64,000 bases of DNA from Desulforamulus ruminis DSM 2154 (GTDB taxonomy: Bacteria > Bacillota > Desulfotomaculia > Desulfotomaculales > Desulfotomaculaceae). The translations under genes and the position numbers were made by a program. The DNA lies in contig NC_015589.1 in assembly GCF_000215085.1 (NCBI RefSeq), forward strand, positions 992,001 through 1,056,000, read 5' to 3'. This document shows positions 31,464 to 38,107 of the stretch, piece by piece (positions within the stretch are counted from its first letter, which is position 1; each line of letters opens with the position of its first letter). Under the pieces are notes generated by a model. The model saw only the letters and a program-made list of their open reading frames with translations, had not been told where the DNA came from and did no database searches.

Positions 31464-31541
<78 letters not shown>

Positions 31542-31562
31542 TATTTTTATATCCGAAATTGT

Positions 31563-31637
31563 TGGGGCGTCGCCAAGCGGTAAGGCACCGGTCTTTGGAA
31601 TCGGCATTCGTTGGTTCGAATCCAGCCGCCCCAGCCA
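31563..31637 (+). tRNA. tRNA-Gln (anticodon TTG)
   Basis: A 75-nt cloverleaf; acceptor TGGGGCG/CGCCCCA, anticodon loop CTTTGGA gives TTG, T-loop TTCGAAT, CCA encoded. Confidence 0.95.
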
Positions 31638-31648
31638 TTTTATTTTTT

Positions 31649-31724
31649 GACCCATTAGCTCAGTTGGTAGAGCACCTGACTTTTAATCAGGGTGTCCCGC
31701 GTTCGAGTCGCGGATGGGTCACCA
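31649..31724 (+). tRNA. tRNA-Lys (anticodon TTT)
   Basis: A 76-nt cloverleaf; acceptor GACCCAT/ATGGGTC, anticodon loop CTTTTAA gives TTT, CCA encoded. Confidence 0.95.
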
Positions 31725-31734
31725 ATAATTTTAA

Positions 31735-31819
31735 GCGGATGTGGCGGAATTGGCAGACGCGCTAGACTTAGGATCTAGTACCGCAAGGTGTGGGGGTTCA
31801 AGTCCCTTCATCCGCACCA
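31735..31819 (+). tRNA. tRNA-Leu (anticodon TAG)
   Basis: An 85-nt class II tRNA with a long variable arm; acceptor GCGGATG/CATCCGC, anticodon loop CTTAGGA gives TAG, CCA encoded. Confidence 0.95.
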
Positions 31820-32313: not shown

Positions 32314-32640
32314 TTAGTTTTCGTCTGCTTGCGGCTCTCCGAACAGAATTTTTATATAGTCGCGTCTGCCGTAAAGAACGCGAACGACATAGACGCTGTC
32401 GCCCTCGTACCGATAAAAAACGAGATAACTGCCGCTCACCAAGAAGCGGTAATTGTTCTGCACATCCATAACGGATGATAAGGGCGCTCCGCTGCCGGGA
32501 AAATCCGAAAGCCTGCGAATCGCTTTGGTTAATTTTGAAACCGTATTAAGGGCAGCTGCGGGATTCTCAAGCTCTACAGCAATATATTCCTTGATACCCC
32601 GCAAATCGCTTTGTGCTTGGGGAGATATGTGGAGTTTCAT
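32314..32640 (-). CDS. type II toxin, RelE/ParE family
   Basis: A 108-residue toxin of the RelE/ParE superfamily: MKLHISPQAQSDLRGIKEYI at the front, SGSYLVFYRYEGDSVYVVRV and the ending LYGRRDYIKILFG. Depending on subtype it cuts ribosome-bound mRNA or poisons gyrase; the sequence favours the ParE side. ATG 32640 begins 1 nt after the stop of the antitoxin gene, so translation is coupled. Confidence 0.88.
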   Translation of the reverse strand: MKLHISPQAQSDLRGIKEYIAVELENPAAALNTVSKLTKAIRRLSDFPGSGAPLSSVMDVQNNYRFLVSGSYLVFYRYEGDSVYVVRVLYGRRDYIKILFGEPQADEN

Positions 32641-32641
32641 A

Positions 32642-32887
32642 CTACACCCCCAAGTTTTTCTCGACTTCCTCTACGGCCAGCCAGCCTTTTTCACGGCCGG
32701 CCTTTTCACCCTCGGCAAGCTGTGACATGAGCTTGATGGTGGCCTGCATTTTCTCGTAGTCCGCAATATCAACAAGCGCGTAGCGTCCTCTGCCATTCTT
32801 GGTTAAAAAGACCGGCTCGCCCGCGGCAACATCCCTTAAAACCTCATTGTAATTTCGCAAATCGGAAACTGGCTTGATGTTTGGCAT
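32642..32887 (-). CDS. type II antitoxin, Phd/YefM family
   Basis: An 81-residue antitoxin: MPNIKPVSDLRNYNEVLRDV, then the family motif PVFLTKNGRGRYALVDIADY near residue 25, and a charged C-terminal tail that would wrap the toxin. GAGGTGATCGC gives the ribosome site. First gene of the pair and the likely autorepressor. An extended -10 (TGATAATAT) is about 25 nt upstream. Confidence 0.88.
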   Translation of the reverse strand: MPNIKPVSDLRNYNEVLRDVAAGEPVFLTKNGRGRYALVDIADYEKMQATIKLMSQLAEGEKAGREKGWLAVEEVEKNLGV

Positions 32888-33102: not shown

Positions 33103-36100
33103 CTAAAGATTAAAAAGACTGACCTGCTTAAATTGGGGACCTTGCTTGGGCGTACCGGCCTTCTCTGTGACAAGATTTTCTTCCGGCAAGTCGTCAATAA
33201 AGGGAGAAGGGGTGCGGGACGTCAGCAGGAGCAGTTCATCCCGGGCTCGGGTCAGACCTACATAGAAAAGCCGTCTTTCCTCCCCGGGATCAAGATCTTG
33301 CTTACTGTTCTTTAAAGGAATCAGCCCATCGTTTACGCCGCACAGAAACACCACAGGAAATTCAAGACCTTTGGCCCCGTGCAGGGTCATTAAAGAAACC
33401 GCATCGGAGGAATAAGCCTTGCCACCATTGCGGACAACATCACTTTCCTGCCCCAACACCAGGTTTTGCATAAAAGAAGGCATTTTATCATACAAAACCG
33501 CTGTTTGTAAAAGCAGCTCCATGGATTTTAGATCTGACAGGGCGTTGTCGTTGATCCAGGCGGCCATCAGTTTTCCGGGCTTTTCTTTATGCACCATGGG
33601 TTCATATTTCCTCAGCCTTTCAATTAAATTCCCGTGTTTATCCGGGATATTTGGCGGAGGAGCGATCCTTTCCAGGATTCCCACAAGGGAAGACACATTT
33701 TTCTCCAGAGCCGCGTACTCTTCCAGAACTTTTTGTCTCAGGTCTGCGGTATAGGTGCTTTCTGCTTGCAGGAATAGCCGCAGGGAAAGCATATCCCCCG
33801 GGTTAAGCAAAAAACTGAAAAAGGCAATGGCCTCGCGGACCGGCTGCTCCCCAAGGAACTCGTCCCGTCCCGCCACCACATATTGAATGCCTTCTTGAAG
33901 CAGGCACTGCTCCAGAATGCGCGCCTGACGGTTGGTACGGTAGAGTATCGCAATGTCGGAAAAGGCCCGGGGATGTTCCGGCACGGGTCTTTTTTTATTG
34001 GCTGCAGATCCTTTCAGGGTATCCAGCATATCAATGCCGCCAACCATGCGATTGATCTCCTTGGCCACAAACAAAGCCTCGGAAAATTCATTCTGAGCTT
34101 CGATCAGACGCACCGGGGCGCCCTTGGCTCTTTTGGCTTCCAGGCAACGTTCGGGGCCTAGGAAGGGTTCCCTGGAAATGACCGATGTGGCGCAATGGAT
34201 AATTTCAGGAGTGGAACGGTAGTTCTGTACTAGCCGGACCTGACAGAGACCGGGAAAATCCTCTTTGAACTTTTCGAAATAACGGAAATCCGAACCCCTA
34301 AAGCCATAAATGGATTGGTCCGGGTCACCAATAATAAATATATTTTCGCTTTTCCTGCCCCAGGCTTTCAACAGGCGGTATTGGACCTCGTTGATATCCT
34401 GGAACTCATCCACCAGAAGATAGGAGAAAGGCTTCTCCAGACGCCGGTTCTTGCGCTCTTCCGGGCTGCCTTCAAAGAGCTTGAGTACTTCCAGGAGGAG
34501 ATCGTCATAGTCCAGGACACCGTAACGCTGCAGTTGTGAGCGGTATAATTCGTGGACCTCCGCAGGAACATCCGATTTTTTCTTGTCTCCCGTCGCTGAT
34601 GCGTCGTTTTTCAGCAGTGAGATCTGCTTCATGGCCTCCCGGGGAGAGATTTTTAATTGAAGGTCCTTTAAGATGTCCCCGACCATGGAAAGGGCATTCT
34701 GTTCATCAATAAGGACAATGTTCTTCCCATCCTTTCCTTTGGACAGGATTTGCAGGCACAAAGAATGAAAGGTGCCGATGGTCATTGCCCGGGCAGTTCG
34801 CTTATCCCCAAAATGTATCTCCAGGCGGAGGCGCATTTCCTTGGCGGCCTGATTGGTAAAGGTGACGGCGGTGATCCGGGAGGGATCTACACCGCAGTTT
34901 TCAACCATATGAGCAATACGGCCTACCAAGGTTTTGGTTTTTCCGGTTCCGGGACCGGCCATGACCGCAATGGCCGGGTGGGGGGATGAGACTGCTTCCC
35001 ACTGCTCCGGGTTCAGCCCGTAAGGCCTGTCCGGAGAATCCGTTTTAATAGCAGCTTCACCACCCTCCGGGAGACAGGCATCCGGCGAAGTGGGTGCCGG
35101 AGGCAGCGCTTGGGCCGCCTTTTTTTCCTTAAGGGCGGAAGGTTGGTTTTCTGTAGTAGAAGAACTCAAAAAGCATAACTGGCCTGAAAGCAGGGTGATT
35201 TCGCTTTTGTCCATGACTTTAATTTTGCCGTATTCTCCGTCAAATCCCGGCTGTATGTCAATCTTACCGCATCTCAACCTGCGGACGCCTTCGGCGATAT
35301 AGGGCCCTGCGGCCAATTCAATATCCTGCAGCGTGGCCTCGCGAAGGATAAAGAGCTCCGGTCCCAGGTTTCGGATCAGGTCCTGGTATTTTCCTTTTAC
35401 CTTGACGCTGGCCGCAGAAAGACCCATGGAGGAAGCAATTACCTCATGAAGCGGCACCAGGCTTTCAAAATGTTTGGCCGCCGGGGGGATATACCCCTCT
35501 TTCCGGTCTGCCAGGGCTTCCAACCGGTGAAGCACGCCCACGGTAATTTTGCCGCCGCAAACCGGACATAAGCCTGCCGCAGCGATTGTGTCCGCCGGCT
35601 TCCAGCATACTTTGCACGCCCGGTGTCCGTCATAGTGGTATTTTCCTTCCTCCGGAAAAAACTCCAGGGTACCGTAGAACTCCTGGCTATGGCGGTTTTT
35701 TAAAGCCTGCAAGATGCCGGGATAGGAAGGCTCGGCAGCAAAAAGATTGGCTTCCCTGGCCAGGTTGGCCGGGGAATGGGCGTCGGAGTTGGAAATCAGC
35801 GTAAATTGATCCAATGCGGAAAGGCGCCAGTTCATGGGCGGGTCGGAGGAAAGGCCCGTCTCCAGCGCATAAATATAGGGGGTTAAATCTTCAAAGCACT
35901 CCTGGATATGGTCAAAGCCGGAATAGGCGCCATACAGAGAAAAATGCGGGGTCCAGATATGAGCGGGAATAAAGATGGCTTCCGGGCACTGCTCCAGCAC
36001 GATTTCCAGCAGATCCCTGCTGTCCAGACCCAATATGGGCCTGCCGTCGGAATGCAGATTGCCGATAGCCTCCAGGCGGCGAGAGATGGATTCGGCATAG

Positions 36101-36438
36101 TCTAAGCCGGGCAGCAGGATCAGGTTATGTACCTTGCGAACCCTTCCGTTCTTCTTGTAGATGGAGCTGATTTCGCCGGAAACAATGAATTGAGGTTGGA
36201 AATCGGCTCCCGCCACCGGATCCTCCTGGCGAAAATTGTTTTTCAGGACATAAAGACCTTCTCCAGAAGGGATCAGCTTCTCCTTTAATTCTTCACGCCA
36301 GGCCGGATGGGTGAAATCCCCGGTTCCGATCACGTTGATCCCTTTGCGTCTGGCCCACATTTCCAGGATTTCGGGGACACAGTCCCTGCTGGTAGCCCTG
36401 GAGTATTTGGAATGGATATGGAAATCGGCAATAAACAT
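33103..36438 (-). CDS. PHP domain-zinc ribbon-UvrD helicase fusion protein
   Basis: A 1111-residue three-part protein. Residues 1-270 are a PHP phosphoesterase with FHIHSKYSRA near residue 6, GTGDFTHP, HIWTPHFSLYG and NSDAHSPANL. Residues 278-300 hold a zinc ribbon (CKVCW, later CPVCGGK). After a Pro/Ala linker, residues 475-1090 are a superfamily 1A helicase: Walker A MAGPGTGKTKT near 493, VDEFQDINEVQY, GDPDQSIYGFRG, QNYRST and TLHGAKGLEFPVVF. The front part resembles the YqxK/endonuclease Q-type PHP nucleases. A single chain with nuclease and motor would cut and unwind damaged DNA. The start is ATG 36438; no partner genes adjoin. Confidence 0.9.
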   Translation of the reverse strand: MFIADFHIHSKYSRATSRDCVPEILEMWARRKGINVIGTGDFTHPAWREELKEKLIPSGEGLYVLKNNFRQEDPVAGADFQPQFIVSGEISSIYKKNGRVRKVHNLILLPGLDYAESISRRLEAIGNLHSDGRPILGLDSRDLLEIVLEQCPEAIFIPAHIWTPHFSLYGAYSGFDHIQECFEDLTPYIYALETGLSSDPPMNWRLSALDQFTLISNSDAHSPANLAREANLFAAEPSYPGILQALKNRHSQEFYGTLEFFPEEGKYHYDGHRACKVCWKPADTIAAAGLCPVCGGKITVGVLHRLEALADRKEGYIPPAAKHFESLVPLHEVIASSMGLSAASVKVKGKYQDLIRNLGPELFILREATLQDIELAAGPYIAEGVRRLRCGKIDIQPGFDGEYGKIKVMDKSEITLLSGQLCFLSSSTTENQPSALKEKKAAQALPPAPTSPDACLPEGGEAAIKTDSPDRPYGLNPEQWEAVSSPHPAIAVMAGPGTGKTKTLVGRIAHMVENCGVDPSRITAVTFTNQAAKEMRLRLEIHFGDKRTARAMTIGTFHSLCLQILSKGKDGKNIVLIDEQNALSMVGDILKDLQLKISPREAMKQISLLKNDASATGDKKKSDVPAEVHELYRSQLQRYGVLDYDDLLLEVLKLFEGSPEERKNRRLEKPFSYLLVDEFQDINEVQYRLLKAWGRKSENIFIIGDPDQSIYGFRGSDFRYFEKFKEDFPGLCQVRLVQNYRSTPEIIHCATSVISREPFLGPERCLEAKRAKGAPVRLIEAQNEFSEALFVAKEINRMVGGIDMLDTLKGSAANKKRPVPEHPRAFSDIAILYRTNRQARILEQCLLQEGIQYVVAGRDEFLGEQPVREAIAFFSFLLNPGDMLSLRLFLQAESTYTADLRQKVLEEYAALEKNVSSLVGILERIAPPPNIPDKHGNLIERLRKYEPMVHKEKPGKLMAAWINDNALSDLKSMELLLQTAVLYDKMPSFMQNLVLGQESDVVRNGGKAYSSDAVSLMTLHGAKGLEFPVVFLCGVNDGLIPLKNSKQDLDPGEERRLFYVGLTRARDELLLLTSRTPSPFIDDLPEENLVTEKAGTPKQGPQFKQVSLFNL

Positions 36439-36628
36439 TAATCATACACCTTTTCTTAAAATAATCAGTCATATTATACCATAAAATACAGATTGAGCCG
36501 GAAGATATCGCATACGGAGTAGTTTTTTGAAAATATAAATCTTATTGCCATTGAACTTTTATCTTGCGGCGTTTTCATTTTTAGGATAAATTGTGTCACA
36601 TAGGGGAGAGGAGAACGGACGGTTAGAA

Positions 36629-38107
36629 ATGTTAGAAGAGGTTAATTTAAATCAAAAAATGGATAAAGAGGATTTTAAAAAGCTTTTTTCTCCCCTGGAA
36701 ATGAAACTGGCGGAACTGCAAAGGCGGATCCGGGAACTGAAGATTCCGGTGATGGTTGTTTTTGAAGGCTGGGATGCGGCCGGCAAGGGGACTTTAATCA
36801 ACCAGATGATTCAGGCCCTGGATCCCCGGGGTTTTCACGTCTACTCCATCCAGGAACCTACGGAGGAAGAACGGCTTTATCCTTTTTTATGGCGGTTTTG
36901 GATTAAAACTCCGGCCCAGGGCAGGATTGCAGTATTTGATCGCAGTTGGTACCGCAGGACGTTAATTGATAGGGTGGAAAAGGTTGTTGCTAAGAAAGAA
37001 TGGCAACAGTCCTATGAGGAAATCAATGTTTTTGAAAGACAGCTTACGGATAGCGGATGTTTAATCGTAAAGTTTTTCCTGCATATCAGCCAAAAGGAGC
37101 AAAAGGCCAGGCTGGAGGAATTGGCCGAGAACCCGGCCACCGCCTGGAGGGTGACGGAACGGGACTGGAAACACCACCGGCAGTATGGCCTGTACCAAAA
37201 GGCTGCCAATGAAATGCTGGAAAAAACCAATACCCGGCACGCTCCCTGGACGGTGGTGGAGGCCCATCATCAAAGATTCGCAACGATAAAAATATATTCC
37301 ACCCTGGTTAAGGCCATAGAGGACGCCGTTCATTTGCGGCAATCCCTTTCCCGGGGTTCCGGGGAAATGACAAAAGGCGGGGAATCACTGCCAAAGGCAG
37401 CCAAGGCGGGTCTGCTGGAGGTGAATTTAAAGCTCTCCCTGGACCAGGAGACATACCGGGAACAATTAAAAAAATATCAAAAGAAAATCCGGGAAATAGA
37501 ACATGCCCTCTATCTTAAAAGGCTCCCCCTGGTTATCTTATATGAAGGCTGGGATGCGGCGGGGAAAGGGGGAAACATCCGGCGGGTAACTGAAAAAATG
37601 GATCCCCGGGGTTACCGGGTGGTTCCGGTTGCCATACCCAATGATCTGGAGAAGGCACACCATTATCTCTGGCGATTTTGGAACTACCTGCCTAAGGCCG
37701 GTCATATAACCATTTTTGACCGGAGTTGGTACGGCCGGGTGTTGGTGGAAAGGGTGGAGAATTATTGTACCCGGTCGGAATGGCAAAGAGCCTACCGGGA
37801 AATCAACGAAATGGAAGAGTATCTGGTTGGCGCCGGGGTTCTGCTGGTCAAGTTCTGGCTGCACATAGAGCAAGAAGAGCAATTAAAACGCTTTATAGAA
37901 AGGCAGCAGCGTAAGCCGTGGAAAATCACCGAGGAGGACTGGCGAAACCGGGATAAATGGCCCCTTTATCTTGAAGCGGTGGAAGAGATGCTTCAACGGA
38001 CCAGTACGTCTCATGCGCCCTGGACCCTTGTGGAAGCCAACTCCAAATATTATGCCAGGATAAAAACCATGAAAACCATCATTGAAGCGGTAGAAAAAAG
38101 ATTGTAG
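36629..38107 (+). CDS. pap: polyphosphate:AMP phosphotransferase (tandem PPK2)
   Basis: A 492-residue protein made of two PPK2 domains. Each has the P-loop (FEGWDAAGKGTLINQ near residue 48; YEGWDAAGKGGNIRR near 303), a lid region (RFWIKTPAQGRI; RFWNYLPKAGHI) and FDRSWYxR. This is the plan of polyphosphate:AMP phosphotransferase, which makes ADP from AMP and polyphosphate. The frame opens at GTG 36593; ATG 36629 (MLEEVNLNQK) is where related proteins begin, but the GGGGAGAGGAG site is 15 nt away, so the start is uncertain. Single gene with strong terminator. Confidence 0.88.
   Translation: MLEEVNLNQKMDKEDFKKLFSPLEMKLAELQRRIRELKIPVMVVFEGWDAAGKGTLINQMIQALDPRGFHVYSIQEPTEEERLYPFLWRFWIKTPAQGRIAVFDRSWYRRTLIDRVEKVVAKKEWQQSYEEINVFERQLTDSGCLIVKFFLHISQKEQKARLEELAENPATAWRVTERDWKHHRQYGLYQKAANEMLEKTNTRHAPWTVVEAHHQRFATIKIYSTLVKAIEDAVHLRQSLSRGSGEMTKGGESLPKAAKAGLLEVNLKLSLDQETYREQLKKYQKKIREIEHALYLKRLPLVILYEGWDAAGKGGNIRRVTEKMDPRGYRVVPVAIPNDLEKAHHYLWRFWNYLPKAGHITIFDRSWYGRVLVERVENYCTRSEWQRAYREINEMEEYLVGAGVLLVKFWLHIEQEEQLKRFIERQQRKPWKITEEDWRNRDKWPLYLEAVEEMLQRTSTSHAPWTLVEANSKYYARIKTMKTIIEAVEKRL

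Follow-up and report, generated by a model that had tools for sequence, protein, structure and literature searches.

The window analysed here comprises 64,000 nucleotides of Desulforamulus ruminis DSM 2154 (GCF_000215085.1, contig NC_015589.1, positions 992,001 to 1,056,000), and it contains a gene whose product joins a domain related to endonuclease Q (EndoQ) to a UvrD-type helicase. A sequence-only reading had described, at 33103-36438, one chain with a PHP domain, a zinc ribbon and a UvrD helicase; the frame was found at exactly these positions on the minus strand, reading from 36438 to 33103, and the plus strand at the same coordinates is full of stops (Table 1). The gene is the sole match to the EndoQ model TIGR00375 in its own genome. 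Chance is excluded as the origin of this domain combination by the domain E-values given below and by the recurrence of both parts in a single frame at 75 related loci, and an assembly artefact is ruled out by the number and spread of the loci. An AlphaFold2 model of the window protein, built from 31 related sequences, had a mean predicted local distance difference test (pLDDT) value of 82 and a predicted template-modelling score (pTM) of 0.56, with residues 421-470 and 1098-1111 predicted to be disordered (pLDDT <50).

Table 1. Features of the locus in window coordinates
Feature	Positions	Strand	Basis or remark
EndoQ-UvrD fusion gene, 1111 amino acids	33103..36438	(-)	open reading frame, ATG start, TAG stop
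EndoQ domain, residues 1-410, made up of the PHP catalytic domain, the zinc ribbon and a helical part at the C-terminal end	35209..36438	(-)	phmmer, Foldseek
Zinc ribbon, H272 to C294	35557..35625	(-)	alignment with P. furiosus EndoQ (PfuEndoQ)
Linker, residues 411-473, mostly predicted disordered	35020..35208	(-)	pLDDT <50 at residues 421-470
Internal beta-clamp-like motif QLCFL, residues 420-424	35167..35181	(-)	Q420 invariance, shuffle comparison
UvrD/PcrA-type superfamily 1A (SF1A) helicase, residues 474-1097	33148..35019	(-)	PF00580, PF13361, Foldseek
C-terminal beta-clamp-like motif QVSLF, residues 1105-1109	33112..33126	(-)	QxxLF tail counts
ParE-type toxin and Phd/YefM-type antitoxin pair	32314-32887	(-)	directly downstream of fusion gene
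Double-domain polyphosphate kinase 2 (PPK2)	36593-38107	(+)	divergent from fusion gene
Four-tRNA cluster (His, Gln, Lys, Leu)	31465-31819	(+)	about 1.3 kb from fusion gene 3' end

The front half is an EndoQ homologue with its active site kept

A phmmer comparison aligned residues 4-410 of the window protein with residues 5-384 of the 400-residue chain of PfuEndoQ (PDB 5zb8) at E 2.2e-44, the two domains being about 30% identical, and Foldseek placed the modelled half on 5zb8 with a template-modelling (TM) score of 0.87 of the target and a root-mean-square deviation of 2.9. By sequence and predicted fold, the front of the fusion is thus confirmed as an EndoQ homologue over the whole domain, beyond the PHP part alone. 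TIGR00375 matched the window protein at E 8.9e-50 and 170 bits, below its curated cut-off of 326.6. Of 398 Bacillota genomes, 206 match the model but only 2 exceed that cut-off, so it looks too strict for this phylum, and the model would leave most EndoQ proteins of the phylum unnamed.

To compare active sites, 112 EndoQ domains were aligned, including 81 fusion-type and 30 standalone rows. Window residues D5, H7, H9, E89, H104, H160, E193, D219 and H221 correspond to PfuEndoQ D6, H8, H10, E76, H84, H139, E167, D193 and H195; the SDAH motif is kept, and all aligned metal positions of the window protein are identical to those of PfuEndoQ. The pocket residues H160, G195 and S197 likewise align with PfuEndoQ H139, G169 and S171, of which G195 and S197 are present in 81 of 81 fusion-type rows and H160 in 80, the remaining row being gapped. 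Over the 81 fusion-type rows the metal and pocket positions do not vary except for gaps and a single E-to-D change, and the catalytic residues are shared with the standalone EndoQs (30/30 rows where ungapped). In PfuEndoQ, changes of E76, H84 or H139 are reported to abolish activity, and H139, G169 and S171 to obstruct normal bases (PMC8307549). The sequence-only reading had likened the PHP part to EndoQ, with its motifs intact, and had proposed aligning the two; the likeness holds, and the PHP ligands are intact on the alignment.

The zinc ribbon bears out the same reading in part. Its four cysteines (C275, C278, C291 and C294) are literally present in the window protein, but C278 is a cysteine in 63 of the 81 fusion-type rows, and the first zinc cysteine of EndoQ (PfuEndoQ C249) is replaced by histidine (H272) in all 81, compared with cysteine in 30 of 30 standalone rows. 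The other three EndoQ zinc cysteine positions are kept in the window protein, the invariant set being H272-C275-C291-C294; the extra C278 could substitute for the missing first cysteine. Twenty-five alignment columns differ consistently between fusion-type and standalone domains, and at several of these PfuEndoQ has the letter of the fusion. Within the family, identity to the window protein is 53.5-84.1% for the EndoQ half, the more conserved of the two, and 30.6-66.7% for the helicase half.

The rear half is a complete UvrD-type helicase

Family searches of the rear half returned PF00580 (E 8e-67) and PF13361 (E 8e-46), residues 475-1076 matched the helicase of PDB 1pjr at E 1.4e-85, and the modelled rear aligned with solved UvrD-DNA complexes at TM scores of up to 0.78 of the target (Foldseek). 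All 31 aligned fusions share the Walker A residues 495-497 and 499-501, D677-E678-x-Q680-D681, R714 and T1063-R1064, and these SF1A motif residues together with the Pfam matches establish the helicase as complete, as had been proposed. Against the PcrA equivalog model the fusion scored 383.6-392.6 bits, below the cut-off of 911.2, compared with 1013.9 for the separate true PcrA of the same genome.

Two beta-clamp-like motifs, one after each half

The window protein ends in KQVSLFNL. Six of the 76 fusions run off their contig before a stop and were left out; of the 70 complete ones, 63 have a QxxLF motif within the last 20 residues (shuffled mean 0.43 of 70). Among 622 other open reading frames of the loci it ended five, all of them halves of split or broken EndoQ-helicase pairs. 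PcrA, UvrD and Rep share the SF1A fold and motifs of the fusion, but ordinary PcrA is without this C-terminal QxxLF (0/30 from the phylum, the PcrA of the window's own genome among them). Another such motif closely follows the EndoQ domain (SGQLCFL in the window protein): in 66 of 72 fusions the form Q-x-x-hydrophobic-F/L was present in the 25 residues beyond the domain (shuffled mean 3.0), four without an end-of-domain anchor having been left out, and the strict QxxLF in 43 of the 72 (shuffled mean 0.4). Q420 of this motif is invariant in 31 of 31 aligned fusions.

The same pattern was seen in three of the four pairs whose halves are encoded separately. In loci L097, L102 and L104, labelled as Nitrospirota, Peregrinibacteriota and Desulfobacterota, the two are same-strand genes 9, 6 and 135 bp apart; their EndoQ proteins end in GQGTLF, QLEMF and GQLGLF, and their helicases in QMGLF, QLTIW and QLTLF. 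No clamp motif was found in the 30 best-scoring standalone EndoQs of Bacillota, and none was seen by eye in 12 fusion-type EndoQs that stand alone.

The beta ring has two binding pockets for such motifs. QLxLF is described as the beta-binding consensus (PMC4549789), and archaeal EndoQ is reported to bind PCNA through a C-terminal motif that is needed for stimulation, with a dissociation constant of 55 nM for the T. kodakarensis pair (PMC4858679). The P. abyssi EndoQ homologue is likewise a PCNA partner, although the motif itself was not mutated there (PMC3820547). The archaeal enzyme carries a PCNA-interacting-protein (PIP) box, whereas the motif of the fusion is of the beta type. Taken together, the two conserved motifs suggest that the fusion works docked on the replication clamp. 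The two-motif arrangement on an EndoQ-helicase chain appears to be newly described here, since neither it nor the helicase fusion was found described in the open-licence literature searched. The enzyme had been called self-contained; nuclease and helicase are indeed in one chain, but the two motifs make the term doubtful because they suggest clamp docking.

The fusion family is widespread and distinct from standalone EndoQ

A query of genome contigs with the full-length protein, which favours fusions, returned 585 relatives, and both halves were matched in all 80 of the best, which were fetched: 75 in one frame and 5 split or broken. Besides the three split pairs above, the frame is broken in L089 and L103, either genuinely or through a sequencing error; L095, L069 and L108 are cut by contig ends, and L082 matches part of the helicase half. 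The fusion was found in Bacillota and about ten other phyla, the taxon labels being mostly those of metagenome bins, so that the proposal of an enzyme for Clostridia proved too narrow: Gemmatimonadota, Latescibacterota, Calditrichota, Chloroflexota, Spirochaetota and others also carry it. Single labels are not to be leaned on, because two Latescibacterota rows sit among near-identical Gemmatimonadota rows.

When a profile of the EndoQ half was run against the 398 Bacillota genomes and the carriers were sorted by hand, 59 had the fusion type, 144 another type only (a figure that includes weak matches such as G193 and G353 as well as G162, a long-frame fragment at a contig end) and 195 none. The two types separate in this search save for one contig-end fragment. 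The 64 fusion-type places comprise 45 frames of at least 980 amino acids, 3 contig-cut fusions, one split pair (L133, two frames parted by one stop), 12 EndoQs alone and 3 fragments. The helicase seems dispensable in some lineages, because no helicase was found with these 12 (L125-L132 and L134-L137) in the stretch fetched. Some of their genomes also have a full fusion elsewhere; the contig stops 1.4 kb downstream in L128 and 0.5 kb downstream in L137. Among nine genomes of its genus, that of the window alone carries the fusion.

In a tree of EndoQ domains, from which the N-terminally cut L069 and L108 were left out, the fusion-type rows (76 fusion, 12 alone and 4 split) form a clade with a long stem, apart from PfuEndoQ and the 30 standalone EndoQs, taken as the best-scoring TIGR00375 loci in the phylum genomes; the Shimodaira-Hasegawa-like approximate likelihood ratio support (SH-aLRT) was 100. 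Joining and parting both seem to have occurred, because fusion status needs 6 changes on this tree. Standalone bacterial EndoQ (the TIGR00375 type, to which the Bacillus homologues named in print belong) thus shares the domain and the catalytic residues with the fusion, but falls in a separate clade, has no helicase and, in the 30 proteins examined, ends soon after GGxYGK.

Fusion-type EndoQ is associated with missing uracil-DNA glycosylase

Genes of the uracil-DNA glycosylase (UDG) family (PF03167) were absent from 41 of the 398 genomes: 18 of the 59 with fusion-type EndoQ, 16 of the 144 with other EndoQ only and 7 of the 195 without EndoQ. The difference was significant between fusion-type and no-EndoQ genomes (Fisher p 5e-8) and between fusion-type and other EndoQ (p 0.002), and a conservative hand count of families gave p 2e-4. 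The stronger of the UDG-family genes in the window's own genome (L112, 3669270-3669710) appears, from sequence only, to lie beside a uvrB-like frame. No EndoV was found in that genome; as a candidate missing partner EndoV was uninformative, being present in 7 of the 398 genomes, none of them a carrier.

A scan of 119 of the 137 listed flanking genes revealed HhH-GPD base-excision glycosylases as the commonest Pfam match among immediate neighbours (4/119). In L041, L042 and L050 the next gene downstream, in the same orientation as the fusion, is nth (gaps of 9-51 bp), and a mutY gene lies 160 bp upstream in L053. These amount to about three independent cases, because L041 and L042 are close kin.

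Genomic neighbourhood

No conserved gene neighbourhood was found, the largest recurrent group within 6 kb covering 11 of 81 loci, the window included; the two members of that group that were scanned are ATP-binding cassette (ABC) transporter ATPases. Control by LexA in the SOS response was also considered and rejected: among 75 fusion loci, two of which have no upstream DNA, a single one has a GAAC-N4-GTTC-type box in the 250 bp before the gene, so that, as far as this pattern shows, the gene is not SOS-run. Like the fusion, PPK2 occurs in only one of the nine genus genomes, and because it too is missing from the 8 others, no empty site can be defined for the idea of a mobile island. A topoisomerase gene upstream of the fusion in the closest relative (L032:3637-5814) also scores strongly with the PADLOC model DpdF.

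A proposed role: a clamp-docked nick-and-peel enzyme for deaminated bases

The reading that we favour, at a probability of roughly 60%, is that the fusion is an excision-repair enzyme for deaminated bases, docked on the clamp, that nicks and then peels the damaged strand. The EndoQ half would find a uracil, hypoxanthine or abasic site, flip the lesion out and nick the strand on its 5' side, leaving a 3'-OH and the lesion at the 5'-phosphate end. The tethered 3'-to-5' UvrD-type motor would then load at the nick on the undamaged strand and peel up the lesion-bearing 5' end, freeing the 3'-OH, which a polymerase on the clamp would extend, and a 5' nuclease would trim the flap. Each of the two motifs, the internal and the C-terminal one, would occupy one pocket of the ring-shaped beta clamp, and so hold both halves at replicating or newly replicated DNA. 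UvrD and PcrA motors run 3'-to-5', and it is because of this polarity that the motor is expected to peel the lesion-bearing end. For EndoQ itself, cleavage 5' of the lesion with a 3'-OH and a 5'-phosphate left behind is reported (PMC8307549). Nick-and-peel would account both for the pairing of this nuclease, of all nucleases, with a helicase and for the presence of a motif behind each of the halves. We infer this function, strongly, from homology together with the new comparative evidence, with lesion cleavage, motor polarity, clamp binding and the order of the steps all belonging to the inference; the claims about the sequence itself are secure.

MutL nickase and UvrD mismatch repair follow a similar course, a clamp-linked nick being followed by helicase-driven strand removal. 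The proposed path shares this nick-then-unwind logic, but the nick of the fusion would be specified by the damaged base and made by the same chain. Compared with the P. furiosus and T. kodakarensis EndoQs (5zb8, 7k30), the fusion has in common the whole domain, the PHP ligands, the pocket, the zinc ribbon and a clamp motif after the domain; unlike them it has a helicase, a second clamp-like motif and a histidine for the first zinc cysteine. In the repair scheme proposed for Thermococcales, PCNA-bound EndoQ is followed by a strand-displacing polymerase, Fen1 and ligase (PMC4858679). Clamp-bound EndoQ, displacement of the lesion end, flap removal and ligation are thus common to both paths, but there the polymerase displaces, the word 'helicase' having no occurrence in the text of PMC4858679, and here a helicase is fused.

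A bolder extension, which we regard as rather doubtful, is that the fusion is the equivalent, for deaminated bases and within a single polypeptide, of mismatch repair, docked by its two motifs on clamps left behind the fork, and that it may replace UDG in many lineages. It would nick at uracil or hypoxanthine in newly made DNA and itself unwind that strand; if this were true, the nick, helicase and clamp coupling that MutS/MutL/UvrD repair divides among several proteins would be united in one chain. No similarity to MutS or MutL was seen among the family matches of the window protein, and the part of UvrD in Caulobacter mismatch repair has been doubted (PMC8034640).

Several findings weigh against nick-and-peel. 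Twelve of the 64 fusion-type places hold an EndoQ without clamp motif and with no helicase in the stretch fetched, and the strict QxxLF is absent from 7 of the 70 complete fusions, several of which have near forms such as QLSFF. In the fourth split pair, L133, the helicase alone ends with the motif. Bacterial EndoQ homologues are said to have a beta-type motif near the C-terminus (PMC4858679, 2016), a statement at odds with 0 of 30 standalone Bacillota EndoQs having one. The zinc site departs from that of PfuEndoQ, and the relative placement of the two halves in the AlphaFold2 model is unreliable at a pTM of 0.56. The UDG statistic accounts for kinship by a rough family count alone, some of the genomes being incomplete, and the window's own genome keeps two UDG-family genes as well as a true PcrA, so that the fusion is not the sole uracil repair there.

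The closest rival to nick-then-peel is that the order is reversed, the helicase first opening DNA in front of or behind the fork, where EndoQ would inspect single-stranded or distorted stretches, and ordinary base-excision enzymes then dealing with the nick. We consider this unlikely, although the present evidence fits either order. UvrD-type enzymes usually need a nick or a 3' tail to start. The reversed order is consistent with the predicted flexibility of the linker, with the reported action of EndoQ on both single- and double-stranded DNA (PMC8307549) and with the importance of helix instability at the lesion for recognition and cleavage by EndoQ (PMC11354406).

Defence against phages, in which the enzyme would attack uracil- or hypoxanthine-rich (or deaminase-made) foreign DNA and the helicase would destroy it, seems to us improbable. 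The UvrD part scores with the PADLOC GajB and DRT helicase models, but the PADLOC matches of the fusion (best 25 of 55) lie in the helicase part and are generic for any UvrD. Gabija (GajA and GajB) also links a nuclease with a UvrD-type helicase, but the nuclease of the fusion is PHP/EndoQ, and no GajA partner was found among the four nearest genes (the ParE/Phd pair, PPK2 and a short open reading frame without Pfam match). Matches to 33 PADLOC families at E up to 1e-10 occur in the flanking genes; among the matches listed for 119 flanking genes, however, only REase_II recurs (4), equalling the HhH-GPD count, and the genes matching the two are most likely the same. The patchiness of the gene within its genus, the nearby toxin-antitoxin pair and tRNA cluster, and the suggestion in a review of a possible additional antiviral role for bacterial EndoQ (PMC8307549) would suit such a role, but a search of 50,697 phage and 72,556 plasmid records with the EndoQ part found nothing at 1e-5, and the clamp motifs fit replication-coupled repair. 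Where the sequence-only reading had left the choice between repair and defence, repair is therefore favoured by the UDG absence, the nth and mutY neighbours and the clamp motifs, and defence finds little support.

Least probable is a reading in which the helicase, like PcrA, works in transcription-coupled or recombination repair and the EndoQ half has come by drift to act on a different phosphodiester substrate, for although the EndoQ clade is divergent (its long stem and low identity to PfuEndoQ, the altered zinc ligand and the 25 differing columns), all tested metal and pocket positions are kept and this half is the better conserved of the two within the family.

In the literature consulted, the steps that follow the EndoQ nick are a proposal, and the fusion family, with its helicase joined to the nickase and its two clamp-like motifs, points to a physical answer in bacteria, by which the question becomes testable with one purified protein. 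The analysis also draws attention to a repair gene, so far uncharacterised, in Lachnospiraceae of the gut and in many other bacteria, one that is commoner where UDG is missing.

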